From NCBI GenBank assembly GCA_903837075.1, contig CAILTI010000024.1:1-35450 (forward strand): a stretch of 35,450 nucleotides of DNA, written 5' to 3'. Origin of the DNA: an uncultured bacterium (GTDB lineage: Bacteria; Patescibacteriota; Minisyncoccia; Phycocordibacterales; PALSA-1337). Positions 1 through 35,264 of the stretch are shown piece by piece. The notes under the pieces are model-generated. The model had not been told where the DNA came from. It made no database searches and saw nothing but the letters and a program-made list of their open reading frames with translations. The stretch's first letter is position 1; each line of letters opens with the position of its first letter. The position numbers were made by a program, and so were the translations under genes.

Positions 1-2286
1 CAGCTTTTTTACTTTTTCAATCTCGTCGGCGATTTCAGATTCAGATAGAGAATTTATTCCGGACTTTTCCCCTTTCTTGATCCACTCTCCAATTTTTTTA
101 TAACTAAATCCCGCCCGCTCAATTGTTTCAACGATCGTATCTCTATCAGGTAACCATTCTACCCCTTCGTGCTCTTGATATTTTTTTAGCCACTCATCGC
201 TCAAAACTTCTTTTGCCCAACCTTCCATACTCTTTGAATACCGAAAACCATTAACACAAACATCCTTCGCACCAGCGTTTTGAAGCTCCGTCATAAGTAC
301 ATCTATTCGCTTGTCGGTAATTCCGTAAATAAATGGCTGAATAACTACGAGCGGGTCAAAACCGGCTCCGATCAAATTTCTTATGGTCACTATTCTGAAT
401 TTATCAGTCCGTTCAAGTTCTGACAATTTTGCATAGGATACTTCCACTTTCAAAACATCACCGTATTTTTCGAACAACTGTCTGGATTTTTCTTCGGTGA
501 TAATCGCCTTGGTGCAAATGGCAACCTTGAAACCGAATTCTCTGGCTTTTTCACAGATAAAATCAAGTTCTTTGGGAAACAAAAGTGGCTCGGATGCCCC
601 TTGAAAACCGACAGTATCGCCCCGCAGTAGTTCAAAATCAAAATTTCGTAATTGCTCTATGTGTTTTTCTCTATTCTTCAATGGGATATTGAAAGCGACA
701 AAAGAATTCATGAAGTATTCCAGATGTTCTCCGTAATCTTCTTTTCTTTCTTGATTCAAGTCGACAATACAATAAGCGCATCCTTGCGGGCAAGCTGATT
801 CGTTCGGATTACGATGAAAATGTTCCTGTTTTGGTTTTTCTTCCGGCACAGGTACTTCCTTTTTTACATTAAGCGCAAAAATACGCGGTGTGTCTATAAC
901 TCCATCAGCCGAAGTGGGTATACCGGAAAGCCAACGAGCCAAACTTAACTCCCCAAGAGTTCTCTTGCCTTTAAGTTTTAAACTCATCCCTCCTTTAAGG
1001 GAGCAATGGGTACAAGCGCTAGTGCAAACATCTTTCAATTTACAAACTCCTTTCTTCTCCGAGTATTCTATTTCTCCTTCTCCACCCACAACATCGAGTG
1101 CCAGCTGAGCTTTTTCCGGTTTCCAATCTGAAGCCGCTTTTGAACATTTTGCCGCCATTTCGCAATCATCACAGCTGTATTTTTCGGGCATTGCCCAGTG
1201 ACAATTATAGTCACTGTCTAGCCCCAATGCATAGCTAACCGCGCAACTTGTTTTTCTAAAAACTTTCAAGCCGAGCTGTTTACCATATTCCTCTATGTAT
1301 TTTTGCAATTCGTCATCTATGAGTTTGTGATCCTTTTGCCAATTTGAATAGCCTTCTGGCGGTTTGATTTTTTCACCGGTAGTTTTTTCAAGGAGTTTAA
1401 GCACATCGGATGTTCCCCTCAATCCGCTATAACAGAGAATTTTACAGCCGCTTTGAGCTACACTATCTAGTGTGGATCTGATAATGTCTTTGAAAGCATT
1501 GTATCCAGGAATGAGAGGTCGTAAATAAGCGATAGCTGGCACTCCAGCTTCCACTAAATTTCTCAAACTCTCAATTCTTTTCTCATGGCTGACCGGTTCA
1601 ATCTTTGTTGGCAGATTAGAAACGCTTTGCAACATTACGACCTTACACTTGATATCTTTCAACTGTTGAGCCCTCTCTTTCGAAAATGACGATTTTGAAA
1701 TTATACCCACCGGTCCACTATGTCCTGACTCCTCAAGTTTTTTCAACTTTGAAAGAGTGTCCTCCCATTGAATTCCGGGGTCCCCGAAATAGTTATTGAT
1801 TGATACAGGAATGTCTCTCATCGCCACAGCAATTTCTGCTGGCACATCGCCAATTTCTTTGTTGATAAACGATTCTATTCCCCCGACACCTTCCTTGCTT
1901 AGATCACTTCTTGATGAAAGAATGCAATACCCGCATTTGTAGCATTTTTCCGTGTTATGAGCATAGACAAACCATGATTTGACCGCTTCATAAACTTTTG
2001 CTCCCAAATTGTGGTCGGCTTTGCCTCCACAGTCTTCTACTTGCAAAACTCTTTCTACTCCGCCAGCGACATCATCAGAACTTTCGACAACCTCTCTTTT
2101 TGCTTTTTCTATCACCGCGTCACCGCGTATAACAGAATCAGCCAATTTCTTTTGTGCAAAAGATAAAATTTGTTCTAACTCATTTACAGTTTCTATCTTT
2201 GTTTCTATTCCCTCATTTGTCTTAGCCTTAGTCGCAAGAGGCACAGAATATGAGTTTTCAATTGTTTCTAGGTTTTGTTTTTCCAT
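1..2286 (-). CDS. Tandem radical SAM protein (3' end beyond window)
   Basis: The minus strand stays open for 762 codons from ATG at 2286 to the window edge, so the C-terminus is missing. Two radical SAM-like halves are visible. The first, about residues 100-360, has a short Cys motif C115-x2-C118-x2-C121, a DIPVSINNYFGDPG segment and a typical RPLIPG strand. The second, about 490-720, has the canonical motif C499-x3-C503-x2-C506 followed by GFQGASEP and QPFIYG, which parallel the first half. Between them is a Cys-rich stretch: C362, C372, C375, C381, then C415, C421, C425, C428, the last three again spaced CxxxCxxC. This suggests up to two SAM clusters plus auxiliary Fe-S or zinc sites. Substrate and pathway are unknown. 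The start is supported by a TGc-TAAAAT box six bases upstream. Assignment to the superfamily is firm for the second half and inferred for the first. Confidence 0.8.
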   Translation of the reverse strand, partial: MEKQNLETIENSYSVPLATKAKTNEGIETKIETVNELEQILSFAQKKLADSVIRGDAVIEKAKREVVESSDDVAGGVERVLQVEDCGGKADHNLGAKVYEAVKSWFVYAHNTEKCYKCGYCILSSRSDLSKEGVGGIESFINKEIGDVPAEIAVAMRDIPVSINNYFGDPGIQWEDTLSKLKKLEESGHSGPVGIISKSSFSKERAQQLKDIKCKVVMLQSVSNLPTKIEPVSHEKRIESLRNLVEAGVPAIAYLRPLIPGYNAFKDIIRSTLDSVAQSGCKILCYSGLRGTSDVLKLLEKTTGEKIKPPEGYSNWQKDHKLIDDELQKYIEEYGKQLGLKVFRKTSCAVSYALGLDSDYNCHWAMPEKYSCDDCEMAAKCSKAASDWKPEKAQLALDVVGGEGEIEYSEKKGVCKLKDVCTSACTHCSLKGGMSLKLKGKRTLGELSLARWLSGIPTSADGVIDTPRIFALNVKKEVPVPEEKPKQEHFHRNPNESACPQGCAYCIVDLNQERKEDYGEHLEYFMNSFVAFNIPLKNREKHIEQLRNFDFELLRGDTVGFQGASEPLLFPKELDFICEKAREFGFKVAICTKAIITEEKSRQLFEKYGDVLKVEVSYAKLSELERTDKFRIVTIRNLIGAGFDPLVVIQPFIYGITDKRIDVLMTELQNAGAKDVCVNGFRYSKSMEGWAKEVLSDEWLKKYQEHEGVEWLPDRDTIVETIERAGFSYKKIGEWIKKGEKSGINSLSESEIADEIEKVKKL

Positions 2287-2417: not shown

Positions 2418-2936
2418 TCAATCTGTACAAGAAACACAATGTTCAGGAATGAAGCACCCCAACGGAGACACCGCGGCCGGTTGGTTGTTACGCCAGTAGT
2501 CTTCGAACCAGCCGTAGTTCCAACTCCACTTCTGGCCGCGCGCATCCCACCAGAGATGACGAACATAGAAACCGCCACAGCCACTACGATAGATCACGCC
2601 CCAGAAATAGATACGTTGATTTTTCCATTCCTCGGGAATGAACTGCGAATTGGCGAGGTAGAAGTTGAGTAGCTGATCGCCATAGACCCATTGCCTCTCG
2701 AGCTTCTTTCGAAGATCCTTACCTTTGATGCAACCATCATTCTGACAATCGTCCCAATGAAACCTGACCGTGTTGGTAGTAACCGTGACCATCCCGCGCA
2801 CCCTATTGGGTAGTTGTTCGGAATCCGGCAATATTGTCCAACCCTCCGGTACCTCAGGAGACTTGTCGAAGTCGACTACGTGCTGACCTGTACCACAACC
2901 AAATTCACATGCTTTTATACGTGCCTTTCCTTTCAT
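2418..2936 (-). CDS. Hypothetical Trp/Cys-rich protein, 172 aa
   Basis: I do not recognise the family. The protein is rich in Trp and Tyr in its C-terminal half (runs such as RHLWWDARGQKWSWNYGW) and has scattered cysteines, including CEFGCG near the N-terminus and a terminal HCVSC. There is no clear signal peptide or membrane segment. I chose the ATG at 2936, preceded at about 11 bases by the purine-rich AAGGGG, over a GTG nine bases upstream that would be too close to it. It has its own consensus promoter, a leader of about 65 nt, and its own terminator, so it is a monocistronic unit. Its use of a Shine-Dalgarno sequence differs from the leaderless core genes nearby, which could indicate transfer. 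It lies between an ATP-grasp enzyme and a radical SAM enzyme; any functional link is speculative. Confidence 0.6.
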   Translation of the reverse strand: MKGKARIKACEFGCGTGQHVVDFDKSPEVPEGWTILPDSEQLPNRVRGMVTVTTNTVRFHWDDCQNDGCIKGKDLRKKLERQWVYGDQLLNFYLANSQFIPEEWKNQRIYFWGVIYRSGCGGFYVRHLWWDARGQKWSWNYGWFEDYWRNNQPAAVSPLGCFIPEHCVSCTD

Positions 2937-3004
2937 TTTTAACACATCCCCTTTCCGAAGATATGTCAGTTATTGTTGTGTCTATCGTCCATAGATCTGC
3001 CAGT

Positions 3005-3044: not shown

Positions 3045-4256
3045 TTACCCATCCCTATTCTGGAGGAGATCTAGTATCGCTCCAGATACATTTCTCGATA
3101 CGCCAGTAGATGGCACATGGTGCATATCTATGTACGGGAGACTGTTTGCTTCGATGACCCCGCAGACCTGATGTTTCCATGATTGACTGATATCAGGACA
3201 AATGAAATCAATACCGATGAGGTCTGCGCCACATAGATGAGCGATCCGCTCGAACATCTCTACATTATCAACATGAGTGATATGAGTTACATCATGTATG
3301 TCAGCACCTGTCGCCAGAGTGATTTTCTTGTTCAAATATATTTTCCTATTTGATAGGGGGACAGTATTGAGCGATATCCCCTGTTCATCCAGAAACGCTA
3401 GAGTACTCTTCGTAAGAGCGATTTTATGTAAAGTAAAGCTATTCTGATCAATATCGCCACGTTTCGCGTCGGCATTCTTCAACTCTATCAATTCGGCTAT
3501 ATCGTGTTTACCGTCTCCGATGATATTCGGTGCTTCTCTCATACAACTAGCGACAAATTTACCACCAACAACAGTGATACGATATATATCTCCCGAGATA
3601 AATCTCTCAACTACAAAATCCTTTTTGAGGATCTGTGATATTGCGACAGCTCGTCTCAATTCTTCTCTCGATGCGACCCCTACCGTCGTATGCTTGCTGA
3701 GGGATCCTGACAAAGGTTTTACTACCACGGGAAAATTGATCTTTTCGATCACATAATCCACCGCTTGATCATAGTTCACAAATGACTGGCCCGATGGGTT
3801 GGGTATGCCGTTCTTTGACAACACCTTCTTGAACTCATATTTATCGTCAAAGTTAAATAGTCTTTTGTTACATGGCAGGATCTTGAAATATATTTTTCTA
3901 TTAGAGAACGTTATAGAAAAAATGGAGCTCGTTAATCCAAAAAAGGTTAATACGGATACATCTAAACCTCTATTTTTCGATTCATGGAGCAGAACCATCG
4001 TTCTGTTCGATATTTTGTCAGTTTCGACTATTTTCCGTTGCCCCATGATACGTATCATCAATAACATATGGAGTAAACTGTGCTCTATATGATTCGATAG
4101 CTTATCGATAATGCTGATATACCTAGACTCGATAAAATGAACCGGTCTCGATACCAGTCTCACGATGCCGACATTTCCCATTTTCTCTAGAAAATGTCGC
4201 GGACTCTCTTCGTACGGATCACAGTGCGAACAATACTTTCCTTCGTTTTTATACAT
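3045..4256 (-). CDS. Cyanophycin synthetase-like ATP-grasp ligase
   Basis: The 403-residue protein carries an ATP-grasp domain from about residue 140 to the end. Visible landmarks are VVVKPLSGS (K180), VVERFISGDIYRITVV (E217, R226), REAPNIIGDGKHDIAELI, GIDFICPD (D350) and EANSLPYIDMH (E369, N371). The IIGDG...RGD...TLHKIA...TGADIHDVTH series resembles the ATP-grasp half of cyanophycin synthetase, but the Mur-ligase half of CphA is absent. The N-terminal 130 residues are unassigned and include C9-x2-C12. The enzyme probably forms an amide bond to a carboxylate using ATP; the substrate is unknown, with GshB/RimK-like peptide ligation as an alternative. ATG 4256 is supported by TGc-TATGAT six bases upstream, so it is probably leaderless. 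It is downstream of rpsT but separated by a terminator. Confidence 0.8.
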   Translation of the reverse strand: MYKNEGKYCSHCDPYEESPRHFLEKMGNVGIVRLVSRPVHFIESRYISIIDKLSNHIEHSLLHMLLMIRIMGQRKIVETDKISNRTMVLLHESKNRGLDVSVLTFFGLTSSIFSITFSNRKIYFKILPCNKRLFNFDDKYEFKKVLSKNGIPNPSGQSFVNYDQAVDYVIEKINFPVVVKPLSGSLSKHTTVGVASREELRRAVAISQILKKDFVVERFISGDIYRITVVGGKFVASCMREAPNIIGDGKHDIAELIELKNADAKRGDIDQNSFTLHKIALTKSTLAFLDEQGISLNTVPLSNRKIYLNKKITLATGADIHDVTHITHVDNVEMFERIAHLCGADLIGIDFICPDISQSWKHQVCGVIEANSLPYIDMHHVPSTGVSRNVSGAILDLLQNRDG

Positions 4257-31826: not shown

Positions 31827-32933
31827 CTAACGATTCATCGGCATAACTAGATACATGAAGGTCTGATCCCCGGAAATAGGCCTTATCACCATAGGTTTAT
31901 TGATCCCGCTCAGTTGTAGGGAGATACTGTCTGCGTCTATAGACTGGAAACAGTCGGCTATGTATTTGTAATTGAAATTGATCTCCATCTTCTCCCCTGT
32001 TAATGCCGCGTCTATATTGGTCTTGTTCTCGCCAATGTCAGAATTTTTCGTTTGGACTTCGAAAATCTTTCCTTTCGGATCTACTATCATGTGCACTTGA
32101 TTGAATTTGTCAGAAAAAATGTTTGATATCTTCAACGCGTTCAAGAAATCTTGTTTCAAAGTTATAACCTCCGTTACATAACCTTTGGGAATGATCTGTT
32201 TGTAATCTGGGAATGTTCCGTCGATGATGCGGGAAACAACGTAGATACCATTGGCCTCAAAAGAGATCAGATTCTTGCCCATTTTTGCTTTGAGATTTTC
32301 TCCCATACTCTCTATGATCCTCGTCACGTCGGCAATATTCTTGAACGGAAGCAGTATCTCGTTGATCTTTACAGCCAAAGGAACCTTTATCCTCTTTTCT
32401 GCTAGACGGAATGAGTCCGTGGCCGCAAAGACGATATAATCCCCGTCCTTGTATATATAGACACTAGACAGCTCCGGCTTCACACTCGACACAGAAGCGC
32501 TGTACCAGACTGATTTTAGGCCTTTTATGAATATCTCACTGGCGAATGACATCTCCGTAGCATCAGCCACTGTCGGAATCGTAGGAAAGTCCTCTATAGG
32601 TAATGTTTTGATGACCCCTTTGGACTTGTTTGCTTGGATGTGTAGATTTCCTGATATGACTTCGACCTTCACTATCTGGTTGTCTTCTTGGATCTGGGAA
32701 ATGAATGATGACAATATATGCCCCGGCACTGCCACAACACCTTTCGTGGTTGTTTTGATAGGTACAGATATCTCCACTCCGATATCTAGGTTAGTTGCCT
32801 TGAAAATAGCAACGTTATCATCAGCCTCTATCAGTACACAAGAGAGAACTGGTAGCGTCATATGTTTGCCAGTTATCCTCTCGACTAGGCCAACTGCTTC
32901 TTTTAGTTTTTTAAAGTTAATTTCAAATTTCAT
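31827..32933 (-). CDS. dnaN: DNA polymerase III beta subunit (sliding clamp)
   Basis: The 368-residue protein starts MKFEINFKKLKEAVGLVERITGKHMTLPVLSCVLIEA and contains IEDFPTIP, ATDSFRLAEKRI, IDGTFPDYKQIIP and a C-terminus FMYLVMPMNR, as expected for the three-domain clamp. The dimer encircles DNA and tethers polymerases; the hydrophobic VMPMN end is the usual clamp tail. It follows dnaA on the same strand across a 170-base AT-rich gap with DnaA boxes. No Shine-Dalgarno sequence or N6-spaced -10 is seen before the ATG. Confidence 0.97.
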   Translation of the reverse strand: MKFEINFKKLKEAVGLVERITGKHMTLPVLSCVLIEADDNVAIFKATNLDIGVEISVPIKTTTKGVVAVPGHILSSFISQIQEDNQIVKVEVISGNLHIQANKSKGVIKTLPIEDFPTIPTVADATEMSFASEIFIKGLKSVWYSASVSSVKPELSSVYIYKDGDYIVFAATDSFRLAEKRIKVPLAVKINEILLPFKNIADVTRIIESMGENLKAKMGKNLISFEANGIYVVSRIIDGTFPDYKQIIPKGYVTEVITLKQDFLNALKISNIFSDKFNQVHMIVDPKGKIFEVQTKNSDIGENKTNIDAALTGEKMEINFNYKYIADCFQSIDADSISLQLSGINKPMVIRPISGDQTFMYLVMPMNR

Positions 32934-33103
32934 GTTATTAGGGGGGTGAATATGTTGATAATTATTTCCAAGGCTAATATTGAATGTATATTATCTATCA
33001 CAAATTATTTATCCTGTTGAAAAATTATAGTTAGTAATTTGATGAAATATTTGTATACTCGCAATCAACAACTTATCCACAGACTTATTACCATGCAAAA
33101 TTT
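32934..33103. other. AT-rich dnaA-dnaN gap, candidate origin region
   Basis: The gap has a perfect DnaA box TTATCCACA (33073-33081) and a one-mismatch box TTATCAACA on the minus strand (32953-32961), with long AT-rich runs between them, a typical origin composition. It sits in the dnaN-dnaA-rpmH block where oriC is usually found. The dnaA-rpmH gap is the competing candidate. Confidence 0.5.
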
Positions 33104-34453
33104 TTATAACATCGAACGTAGTTGATTGATCTCTTGTAACAGAACCGGACTAGTCTTCAGATCCTCTTTCACTTTTTCATACGAGTGGATGACTGTGGTG
33201 TGATCGCGACCGCCCAGCTTGTCCCCTATCGAAGGGAAAGAGATGTTAAAGTCCTCACGGAGCATATACATGACGACTTGGCGTGGCTTAACTACCTCTT
33301 TTCTGCGGGTTTTGTTGTATATACTATCTTCGTCGACATTGTAGAAATCAGAGACGACCTTCACGATATCTTTGATAGAAACAGTCTTTTTGGGTTTGGC
33401 ACTATTCTTCAATATATCCTTGATCTCGTTTATATTGAGTTCCCTGTTGCGGAGTTGTGTCTGGCAAGCGATCACATTGACGATACCTTCTATCTCGCGG
33501 ATATTGTCATCGATCGATCCAGAAAGATATTCGACGACATCTGTTGATAGGGTGATGTTGTGAACACCGCACTTCGTTCGAACTATGGCCATCCTAGACT
33601 CGCGATCTGGTTCAGGTATATCTACGATCATACCGACACTGAATCTGCCTCTCAAGCGAGATTCGAGACCAGGGATGATGTTCGGGTGACGATCAGAAGA
33701 AAATACGAGTTGTCTTCCTGTATCATGGAAGGTATTGAAGAAGTGGAACAACTCTTCCTGGAATTTTTCTTTGTGTGAGAAGAATTGGACATCATCCATG
33801 ATCATCACGTCATATTTTCTATACTTATCCTTGAATGGTTGAACTTTGTTCTCCTGTATAGCTACGAAGAACTCAGAACCAAACCTCTCTGAGGTGAGGT
33901 AGAAGACCCTTTTGTTCGGGTGAACTTTCTTGATCTGGTTCCCTACTGCCTGGATGAGATGAGTTTTGCCTCTACCGGTCGATCCGTAGACGAATAGTGG
34001 GTTGTAAACCATGCCTGGGTTCTTGATGATGGCCTGTGAAGCAGCATGGGCGAGCTCGTTGAATGGTCCTATGACAAAATTATCGAACGTATAACGTGGA
34101 TTCAGGTTATCTTCTTTGTTTATATAGAAATCTTGTAGTGGCATAGGCATTGTCGGGGTTGCGACAACCTTCTTTTTGGCGTCATTGACCTTGGACTTCT
34201 CATTTTCCTTGGTTATAACGTATTCGAGAGCCCTGATACCTTCATTCATCTGCCTCAATATGCGTAGAATGTTGTTGTGGAACTTCTTTACCATCCATTC
34301 TTGAGTAAATGAGTTCGGAACCCCTAGATATACTACGCCTTCAGTCTCCTTAAGGATCTTGGTTTCTTTGAACCATGTAGAAAAATTGGCCTGAGACACT
34401 ATCGTCTCTATCTCTACTAGCGCTGTTTGCCACATTTTTGAATAGTCTTGCAT
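33104..34453 (-). CDS. dnaA: Chromosomal replication initiator DnaA
   Basis: The 449-residue protein has domain I (MWQTALVEIETIVSQANFSTWF), a linker, the AAA+ domain with GSTGRGKT (157-164) and VMIMDDVQFF, and domain IV ending in the DnaA signature GGRDHTTVIHSYEKV that reads DnaA boxes. It opens oriC and loads the helicase. ATG 34453 is used; a second in-frame ATG six codons on (MWQTAL) is also possible. A TATACT box lies about 20 bases upstream of the ATG. It is divergent from rpmH. Confidence 0.97.
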   Translation of the reverse strand: MQDYSKMWQTALVEIETIVSQANFSTWFKETKILKETEGVVYLGVPNSFTQEWMVKKFHNNILRILRQMNEGIRALEYVITKENEKSKVNDAKKKVVATPTMPMPLQDFYINKEDNLNPRYTFDNFVIGPFNELAHAASQAIIKNPGMVYNPLFVYGSTGRGKTHLIQAVGNQIKKVHPNKRVFYLTSERFGSEFFVAIQENKVQPFKDKYRKYDVMIMDDVQFFSHKEKFQEELFHFFNTFHDTGRQLVFSSDRHPNIIPGLESRLRGRFSVGMIVDIPEPDRESRMAIVRTKCGVHNITLSTDVVEYLSGSIDDNIREIEGIVNVIACQTQLRNRELNINEIKDILKNSAKPKKTVSIKDIVKVVSDFYNVDEDSIYNKTRRKEVVKPRQVVMYMLREDFNISFPSIGDKLGGRDHTTVIHSYEKVKEDLKTSPVLLQEINQLRSML

Positions 34454-34608
34454 AGGTAAATTTTTTCTTTAAGTATATACCTGTTTATAATTCTGCATAC
34501 TTGTGGAGGAAGATAAAATATGTTGATAAGTTGTGGACAACTATTTTAGTGGGTTTTTTCCTACATAAAGGTTGTAATTTTTTATAGGTTTTAATGAATG
34601 AGGGATAA
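34454..34608. other. dnaA upstream region with DnaA-box-like sequences
   Basis: TTATCAACA (minus strand, 34521-34529) and TTGTCCACA (minus strand, 34532-34540) lie side by side, each one base from the DnaA-box consensus, within AT-rich DNA. This fits an origin element or DnaA autoregulation. Confidence 0.45.
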
Positions 34609-34672
34609 GTAACCTCCCACACCTCTTTTTGTCACAAAATATCCTCGAGACTCAAGGGGTGTGGGAGGTTAC
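34609..34672. repeat. Palindromic element, copy 2 (dnaA/rpmH gap)
   Basis: Arms of 19 bp (34609-34627 with 34654-34672, one G-T pair) enclose a 26-base segment, most of which (34631-34656 including the first arm bases) is identical to 4809-4834 in copy 1. The arms share AACCTCCCACA with copy 1 but differ by compensatory changes. It ends 47 bases before rpmH, just upstream of its promoter. Confidence 0.85.
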
Positions 34673-34683
34673 CTTCATACCAC

Positions 34684-34712
34684 TTGAATTTATCAGTAAG
34701 ATAAGGTACAGT
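34684..34712 (+). promoter_or_regulatory. Promoter of rpmH
   Basis: TTGAAT and TACAGT are separated by 17 bases; the -10 ends seven bases before ATG 34720, so the rpmH transcript would be leaderless. Confidence 0.5.
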
Positions 34713-34719
34713 AGTCTGC

Positions 34720-34854
34720 ATGTCATTCACATACAATCCAAAAAAGAGGAAGCGTGCCAAATCCCACGGTTTTCGAGTACGCATGAAGACTACTTCTGGC
34801 CGCAAAGTATTGGCTCGCCGACGCAGCAAAGGTCGCACTCGTGTTGCCGTCTAA
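34720..34854 (+). CDS. rpmH: 50S ribosomal protein L34
   Basis: The 44-residue protein reads [19 protein letters not shown] and continues with the L34 signature [19 protein letters not shown]. It is a small Arg/Lys-rich protein of the large subunit. Its place next to rnpA and yidC and divergent from dnaA is the classic origin arrangement. The slightly unusual [10 protein letters not shown] opening, in place of KRTxQPSxRKR, is acceptable within the family. rnpA starts 14 bases after its stop. Confidence 0.95.
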
Positions 34855-34868
34855 GCACATAGTCCTAT

Positions 34869-35264
34869 ATGCTACCTCGTTCAGTTAGGCTTACTAAGGA
34901 ACAATTCAACTCTGTTATGGAAAAAGGGAGAGCTTATCACTCTACCCTTTTCATGTTGAGGGTCGTGCCTGCGACTAGTCCCGCGGTCAGTCCCGATTCT
35001 GTCAGCGGTAATGTCGGGAAAAGGACGCCTTTGGTCACTCCTACACACATCGCGGCCAGTATACCGAGCAAAGTTTCCAAGAAAGCCGTGGATAGGAATA
35101 GAATGAGGAGGAAAATATATGAGGCTATAAAACCGTTCTATAAGATAGTGGCTCCGAATCATTACGTGGTTGTTTTTGGTAAAAGCACCGCTCTCACGGT
35201 GACTCAGAGCCAATTGGAGAAAGATGTTCGCGATATCTTTGTAAAAGCGGGATTATTGAGGTAG
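34869..35264 (+). CDS. rnpA: Ribonuclease P protein component
   Basis: The 131-residue protein begins MLPRSVRLTKEQFNSVMEKGR and has the RnpA core IPSKVSKKAVDRNRMRRKIYEAI, where the RNR motif contacts RNase P RNA. It helps the RNA subunit process tRNA 5' ends. A Pro/Ser/Val-rich insert (PATSPAVSPDSVSGNVGKRTP) lengthens the N-terminal half compared with typical proteins of about 115-120 residues. It lies in the rpmH-rnpA-yidC operon. Confidence 0.93.
   Translation: MLPRSVRLTKEQFNSVMEKGRAYHSTLFMLRVVPATSPAVSPDSVSGNVGKRTPLVTPTHIAASIPSKVSKKAVDRNRMRRKIYEAIKPFYKIVAPNHYVVVFGKSTALTVTQSQLEKDVRDIFVKAGLLR

Follow-up and report, generated by a model that had tools for sequence, protein, structure and literature searches.

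A gene at the edge of a contig from a patescibacterial draft genome very probably fuses, in one chain, two proteins of the radical SAM (rSAM) superfamily that are regular partners and are encoded elsewhere by separate, neighbouring genes. The two, here called A and B, appear from their sequences to be a previously unmodelled pair within the superfamily, in which A combines a nonstandard cysteine motif with an apparent natural circular permutation. The gene lies in the window (the whole 35,450-nucleotide stretch analysed here, contig C24 of a 60-contig draft genome of 730 kb and 77% completeness), where it runs on the minus strand (2286..1) from an ATG start through 762 codons, stop-free to the contig edge, so that the predicted open frame is real. 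Its product begins with an extension (residues 1-95; 2002..2286, minus strand) of mostly predicted helical character, which matched no family in Pfam or NCBIfam and is missing from a phage homologue (L058, below). There follow domain A (residues ~96-474; 865..2001, minus strand), a noncanonical rSAM barrel with a cysteine-rich C-terminal part, delimited by Pfam, hhalign, the phage A protein and a structural model, and domain B (residues ~493-762; 1..810, minus strand), a canonical rSAM domain delimited by Pfam, the phage B gene and alignment. Compared with the B proteins of L058 and L056, ~25-50 residues of B are missing past the contig edge. A search of the other contigs with the phage B tail did not recover this 3' end, although such a search had no power to show its absence. 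This is the sole rSAM protein that the Pfam model detected in the 730-kb draft genome.

The original prediction, that the chain holds two homologous rSAM barrels, is supported when each half is searched separately. Radical_SAM (PF04055) matches the whole chain at 5e-10 and the separate halves at 8e-5 and 4e-4, each under the curated cut-off; the halves are homologous to each other in profile-profile comparison (E=9e-14, 98%), and the stretches RPLIPG (residues 256-261) and QPFIYG (650-655), predicted to correspond, do occupy equivalent places in their respective barrels. The rSAM hallmark, CX3CX2C in the strand-1 loop, is present in B as C499-x3-C503-x2-C506 (residues 499-506; 769..792, minus strand; checked letter by letter), where it had been predicted, and is kept in all B relatives. 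A lacks this hallmark but has the homologous partial TIM barrel, as indicated by PF04055, by hhalign against a canonical single-barrel family (E=4e-27) and by an AlphaFold model (pTM 0.70).

Membership of the whole chain in one described family was considered and rejected, as Pfam, NCBIfam, PADLOC and the PDB sequences held no match to it. No NCBIfam model reached its cut-off, the best being the PA0069 family (44.7 vs 360 bits), with the Rv2578c family at 35.5 bits (cut-off 430) and prokaryotic viperin at 20.7 (cut-off 180); a PADLOC pVip match (1.4e-6) is confined to part of B. Similarly, the fused protein matched no sequence of a solved structure in the PDB, no biotin or lipoyl synthase family in NCBIfam or Pfam, and no SPASM model in Pfam at E<=1, and no photolyase or spore photoproduct lyase model reached cut-off. 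Proteins like viperin, PA0069/Rv2578c and spore photoproduct lyase thus share a weak profile similarity with the barrels, far under curated cut-offs, and differ from the fused chain in being single barrels with the canonical motif. The F0 synthase FbiC, whose separate counterparts are CofG-CofH, likewise joins in a single chain two rSAM barrels that are encoded by separate genes elsewhere, but with canonical motifs in both halves, unlike the fused A-B chain, and no NCBIfam model of that family matched our protein.

Separate A and B genes were found in both phages and cellular genomes. A profile scan of viral contigs recovered them as adjacent genes on a 136-kb contig, L058, which we take to be a tailed phage from our reading of its translations (terminase, portal, capsid and sheath genes). 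Its A protein (363 aa) is 46% identical to window A over the aligned region and its B protein (312 aa) 54% identical to window B over 250 aa; the A gene ends where the B gene starts, in different frames. The phage contigs L074, L076 and L079 likewise carry A and B as separate neighbouring genes, in L074 with a portal-protein gene next door, and an intact A lies next to B at four cellular loci: L054 (Uhrbacteria, the same as G678), L055 (Moraniibacteriota), L056 (the same as G541) and G896. The genomes of the host phylum that contain relatives bear the names Uhrbacteria, Moraniibacteriota and Patescibacteria. As a separate observation, one chain just downstream of the A-kinase-B cassette of L074 (L074:7101-10088) combines a phage portal protein with an inorganic-pyrophosphatase-type domain.

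The pair is rare. None of 52 other genomes of the same family contained close relatives, and among ~380-400 genomes drawn at each of the levels of class, order and phylum there were four loci, including the degraded one in G518 (below). Patterns from B, run against 84,980 species, gave three loci; this is a lower bound, as G896 escaped them. Genome contigs gave no match in a single-sequence scan and three loci in a profile scan. L074 A and L079 B had no tblastn match in annotated phages and plasmids, where the window protein found single-barrel cousins only, on plasmids.

Three groups of cysteines distinguish A. The first is a module, KSW...C115-x2-C118-x2-C121 (residues 103-121; 1924..1980, minus strand), forming a noncanonical cluster loop located by a module HMM, hhalign and a letter check. 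The others, read from alignments and likewise checked by letter, are four-Cys site I (C348, C372, C375, C381; residues 347-381; 1144..1248, minus strand), which is common to A and the single-barrel cousin family and has a SPASM-like C-x2-C-x5-C core with the remainder of the SPASM pattern missing, and four-Cys site II (C415, C421, C425, C428; residues 414-428; 1003..1047, minus strand), which is specific to A. All 11 of these cysteines are kept in the phage homologue L058 at 46% identity, a degree of conservation beyond chance. Sites I and II are probable auxiliary clusters of A. A CxxxCxxC had been placed at 421-428 in a cysteine-rich bridge between the barrels; these positions are exact, but the bridge is no linker and, because its cysteines are conserved in the phage A protein, belongs to A as the two four-Cys sites. 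In G518, B stands beside a 116-aa A remnant in which site II and the CX2CX2C module are all that is left (L085:7269-8630) and which on its sequence may be either degraded or a working minimal form.

The shortened motif predicted for the first half is genuine, reading [KHN]C[FLY]xCxYC in the window and in nine A relatives with the site read. It also aligns with known rSAM motifs: in the hhalign comparison, CYKCGYC falls on GCPLxCGYC of the canonical cousin family without a gap; only the first cysteine is displaced, by a single residue, and the K-S pair ahead of the motif keeps its spacing. A sequencing error as the source of CX2CX2C was ruled out by its conservation in L058 and further A relatives. 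A retains further SAM-contact positions, namely D-P after strand 2, S-x-S and RPxIxG, and, as both halves keep such positions, we lean towards two putatively active domains. We know of no proven SAM-cleaving CX2CX2C example, and in the open-access literature we found no published CX2CX2C or circularly permuted rSAM protein; the pair raises the question of whether CX2CX2C supports SAM cleavage.

The closest comparison for A is an uncharacterised single-barrel rSAM family (e.g. WP_088200847.1, Sinorhizobium psymA), homologous to A over ~300 residues and found on plasmids, in prophages and in some Patescibacteria. These cousins share the site I cysteines with A but have the canonical CX3CX2C, no site II and no B partner, and no member read is permuted. 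In the tree A groups with them, while B forms its own clade. Their partner genes encode MazG, NUDIX, P-loop kinase, exonuclease and HD proteins.

Each of the four intact split loci in cellular genomes has a class-V cysteine-desulfurase-like gene next to the A/B pair and on its strand (upstream in three, downstream in G896); the product of this gene (Pfam 2e-79) retains R-x-G-x-x-C with the desulfurase-type cysteine. As the G896 enzyme is only ~30% identical to those of the other loci, this association may have had more than one origin. In G896, L074 and L079 A and B flank an adenylate-kinase-family (ADK) gene, to which L076 has a partial match. A further gene of the phage contigs, cupin-like by a weak Pfam match, gives L079 the order cupin-A-kinase-B. 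In L058 neither desulfurase nor kinase adjoins the pair.

From these features we tentatively propose, with somewhat less than even confidence, that A and B form a two-part rSAM enzyme, fused here, that would carry out coupled steps on a nucleotide-like small molecule. Each domain would bind a [4Fe-4S] cluster and SAM, A would contribute two auxiliary clusters, and together they would perform two coupled steps, most likely including insertion of sulphur; the donor would be one or both auxiliary clusters of A, recharged by the cysteine desulfurase, and where an adenylate-kinase-like enzyme is present it would phosphorylate the substrate or product. That both domains are catalytic is, judging from the conserved residues, slightly favoured. 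The nucleotide-like substrate is suggested by the kinase neighbour and, among the cousins, by partners of the MazG, NUDIX and kinase types. Sulphur transfer onto such a substrate, suggested by the desulfurase neighbour and the auxiliary clusters, is possible though doubtful; lipoyl synthase, a sulphur-inserting rSAM enzyme, tops the PDB matches of both A models, though it is only weakly alike. Against the proposal, the desulfurase may serve cluster supply alone, ADK-family proteins can act on other substrates, and neither gene adjoins the window gene or the L058 pair. The fullest version, a pathway of phages and Patescibacteria in which two rSAM proteins, one permuted and with a working CX2CX2C, would assemble a sulphur-containing nucleotide for phosphorylation by a dedicated kinase, we consider unlikely; if true, it would be a new route to thionucleotides and would include the first permuted rSAM barrel. 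A further question raised by the pair is what modified molecule is made with it in phages and in a minimal-genome bacterium.

Known systems offer likenesses of working principle. LipS1 and LipS2 are two rSAM proteins that jointly insert sulphur (PMC9585515); like A and B they act together, are often neighbours and, as in our proposal for A, use auxiliary clusters as the sulphur source, but both have canonical CX3CX2C, their auxiliary cysteine patterns are different, the substrate is a lipoyl-domain peptide, and there is no sequence match to A/B. The rSAM-kinase-NTPase cluster thmA-C produces 4'-thiothymidine, and in AbmM of the albomycin system a cluster is the sulphur donor (PMC12691670). Compared by description, these systems resemble the A/B cassettes in pairing rSAM chemistry with a nucleoside kinase and, as proposed for A and B, in making a sulphur-containing product, here a nucleoside, and differ in having one rSAM protein (thm) or two unrelated ones (albomycin AbmM/AbmJ).

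The leading rival to this proposal makes A the cluster-bearing partner of a single catalytic domain, B. Under it A, having lost SAM cleavage, would serve B as a scaffold or electron relay, its CX2CX2C holding an ordinary [4Fe-4S] cluster and its two four-Cys sites forming an electron path. The nonstandard cysteine spacing of A against the canonical spacing of B in every pair found agrees with such a division of labour, as do the ferredoxin-type spacing of CX2CX2C (PMC9431491) and the ability of auxiliary clusters to carry out intermolecular electron transfer in PapB (PMC10470005). A pure scaffold would, however, be expected to lose the SAM pocket, whereas the barrel of A retains its contact positions; moreover, its loop falls gapless on the canonical loop, and in the A-like protein G455 that place is occupied by CX3CX2C. 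We regard a non-catalytic A as a serious possibility to which we nonetheless give limited credence.

Alternatively, the pair might act on nucleic acid, in DNA repair or in hypermodification of DNA or RNA, in the manner of spore photoproduct lyase or phage base-modification enzymes. The barrels' weak similarity to PA0069/Rv2578c proteins, the appearance of spore photoproduct lyase among PDB matches of permuted A, the presence of the pair in phages and the DEDDh exonucleases adjoining the cousins are all compatible with this. We think it improbable, given that no photolyase or spore photoproduct lyase model reached cut-off, that no nucleic-acid-binding domain was seen and that the kinase partners fit small nucleotides better.

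The A chains are arranged in two ways. Two of them, those of the window and L058, have the module K-S-W...CX2CX2C ahead of strand 2; in all remaining A relatives the chain begins at strand 2 and carries a module N-S-W...CX2CX2C at the C-terminus. An HMM built from seven C-terminal modules alone recovers window residues 101-130 at E=1.5e-8 and L058 residues 14-49 at 9e-10, against a best of 0.37 among 3000 shuffles, and the remainder is collinear (G541 A 18-324 vs window 152-465, 33.5% identity). A is thus apparently a naturally circularly permuted barrel in every relative but these two. The strongest sign that the C-terminal module is the rSAM cluster loop comes from G455 (L053:9496-10494), a lone A-like permuted protein with a canonical CX3CX2C at that terminus; it is the first to branch within A, on a long branch, and may hold the clue to how the events followed one another. 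Its gene is followed by a gene of unknown type. Because the whole-chain alignment for structure prediction placed B rows on A, A was modelled alone, and AlphaFold produced the barrel core for both domain A (pTM 0.70) and permuted A (0.69), bearing out the first-half barrel, with the cluster module unresolved in each. rSAM enzymes lead the PDB matches of both models, lipoyl synthase first, with modest TM-scores, and spore photoproduct lyase is among those of permuted A. With the C-terminal module of permuted A left unresolved, the case for permutation is made from sequence.

The same gap in both models, and the general mobility of short cysteine-rich modules, would fit a C-terminal CX2CX2C segment that is an independent add-on to an unpermuted barrel. 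Yet the segment takes in the pre-cysteine stretch K/N-S-W with equal spacing to the last cysteine (window, L058, G541, G678, L055) and finds its counterpart in the linear proteins with the E-values given above, the permuted proteins start at strand 2 with no other cysteine triple for the rSAM cluster, and the G455 segment carries CX3CX2C, all of which make an add-on quite unlikely. The usual mark by which an rSAM enzyme is recognised is a CX3CX2C close to the N-terminus; with a conserved CX2CX2C, mostly C-terminal in a permuted barrel, and matches under curated cut-offs, ordinary annotation will miss enzymes such as A.

The fusion itself is special to the window chain among the loci found, the halves being separate adjacent genes elsewhere. 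The junction, which is the true linker and was set by comparison with the A/B gene boundary of L058, spans residues 470-497 (FALNVKKEVPVPEEKPKQEHFHRNPNES; 796..879, minus strand). That the fusion is an assembly or sequencing artefact in an organism with two genes is very improbable: the gene does sit where a contig ends, in a draft of 60 contigs, and the two L058 genes do meet in different frames, but the 28-residue spacer is in-frame, hydrophilic and P/E/K-rich, exceeds the 24 residues of the L058 A tail plus B head, and is crossed without a stop in 762 codons.

At the window locus neither desulfurase nor kinase adjoins the fused gene, the downstream side of which is cut off by the contig edge. 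Upstream on the same strand are an unnamed ORF of 175 aa (2418-2945, minus strand) that matches nothing in Pfam and, identified by Pfam, a gene of the ATP-grasp (RimK-type) kind (3045-4256, minus strand). No close match to the cassette desulfurase was present in the 730-kb draft genome, in which the only class-V aminotransferase/cysteine desulfurase match (G000:C7:17468-18621; L083, L084) is split over two frames, by either a frameshift or an assembly error. At the far end of the window (31827-35264) lie clustered genes that we take from their translations to be dnaN-, dnaA- and rnpA-like, which suggests a replication origin region.

The cousin family has cassettes of its own, combining a canonical rSAM gene with genes for a DEDDh 3'-5' exonuclease and an AAA_28 P-loop kinase, and further with either an HD-domain or an aldo/keto reductase gene (L012:4022-7809, L014:3866-7657, L062:5890-8155, L066:5731-8961, L013:1824-7075), and in Streptomyces with thymidylate-synthase- and NDK-like genes too. 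They are mobile (plasmids, prophages) and twice adjoin defence genes (CBASS in L012, HerA in L062), and the arrangement has the look of a cassette, so far undescribed, for a nucleotide pathway or for defence. Two patescibacterial cousins (L002:1003-2472 and L017:1492-2955) carry an N-terminal fusion to a MazG nucleotide pyrophosphohydrolase. By our reading of translations, three Patescibacteria (L020, L043, L045) presumably have aldo/keto reductase, canonical cousin and alanyl-tRNA-synthetase-like genes in a row, and L018:161-2561 presumably joins a NUDIX-like gene, an rSAM cousin and a guanylate-kinase-like gene.
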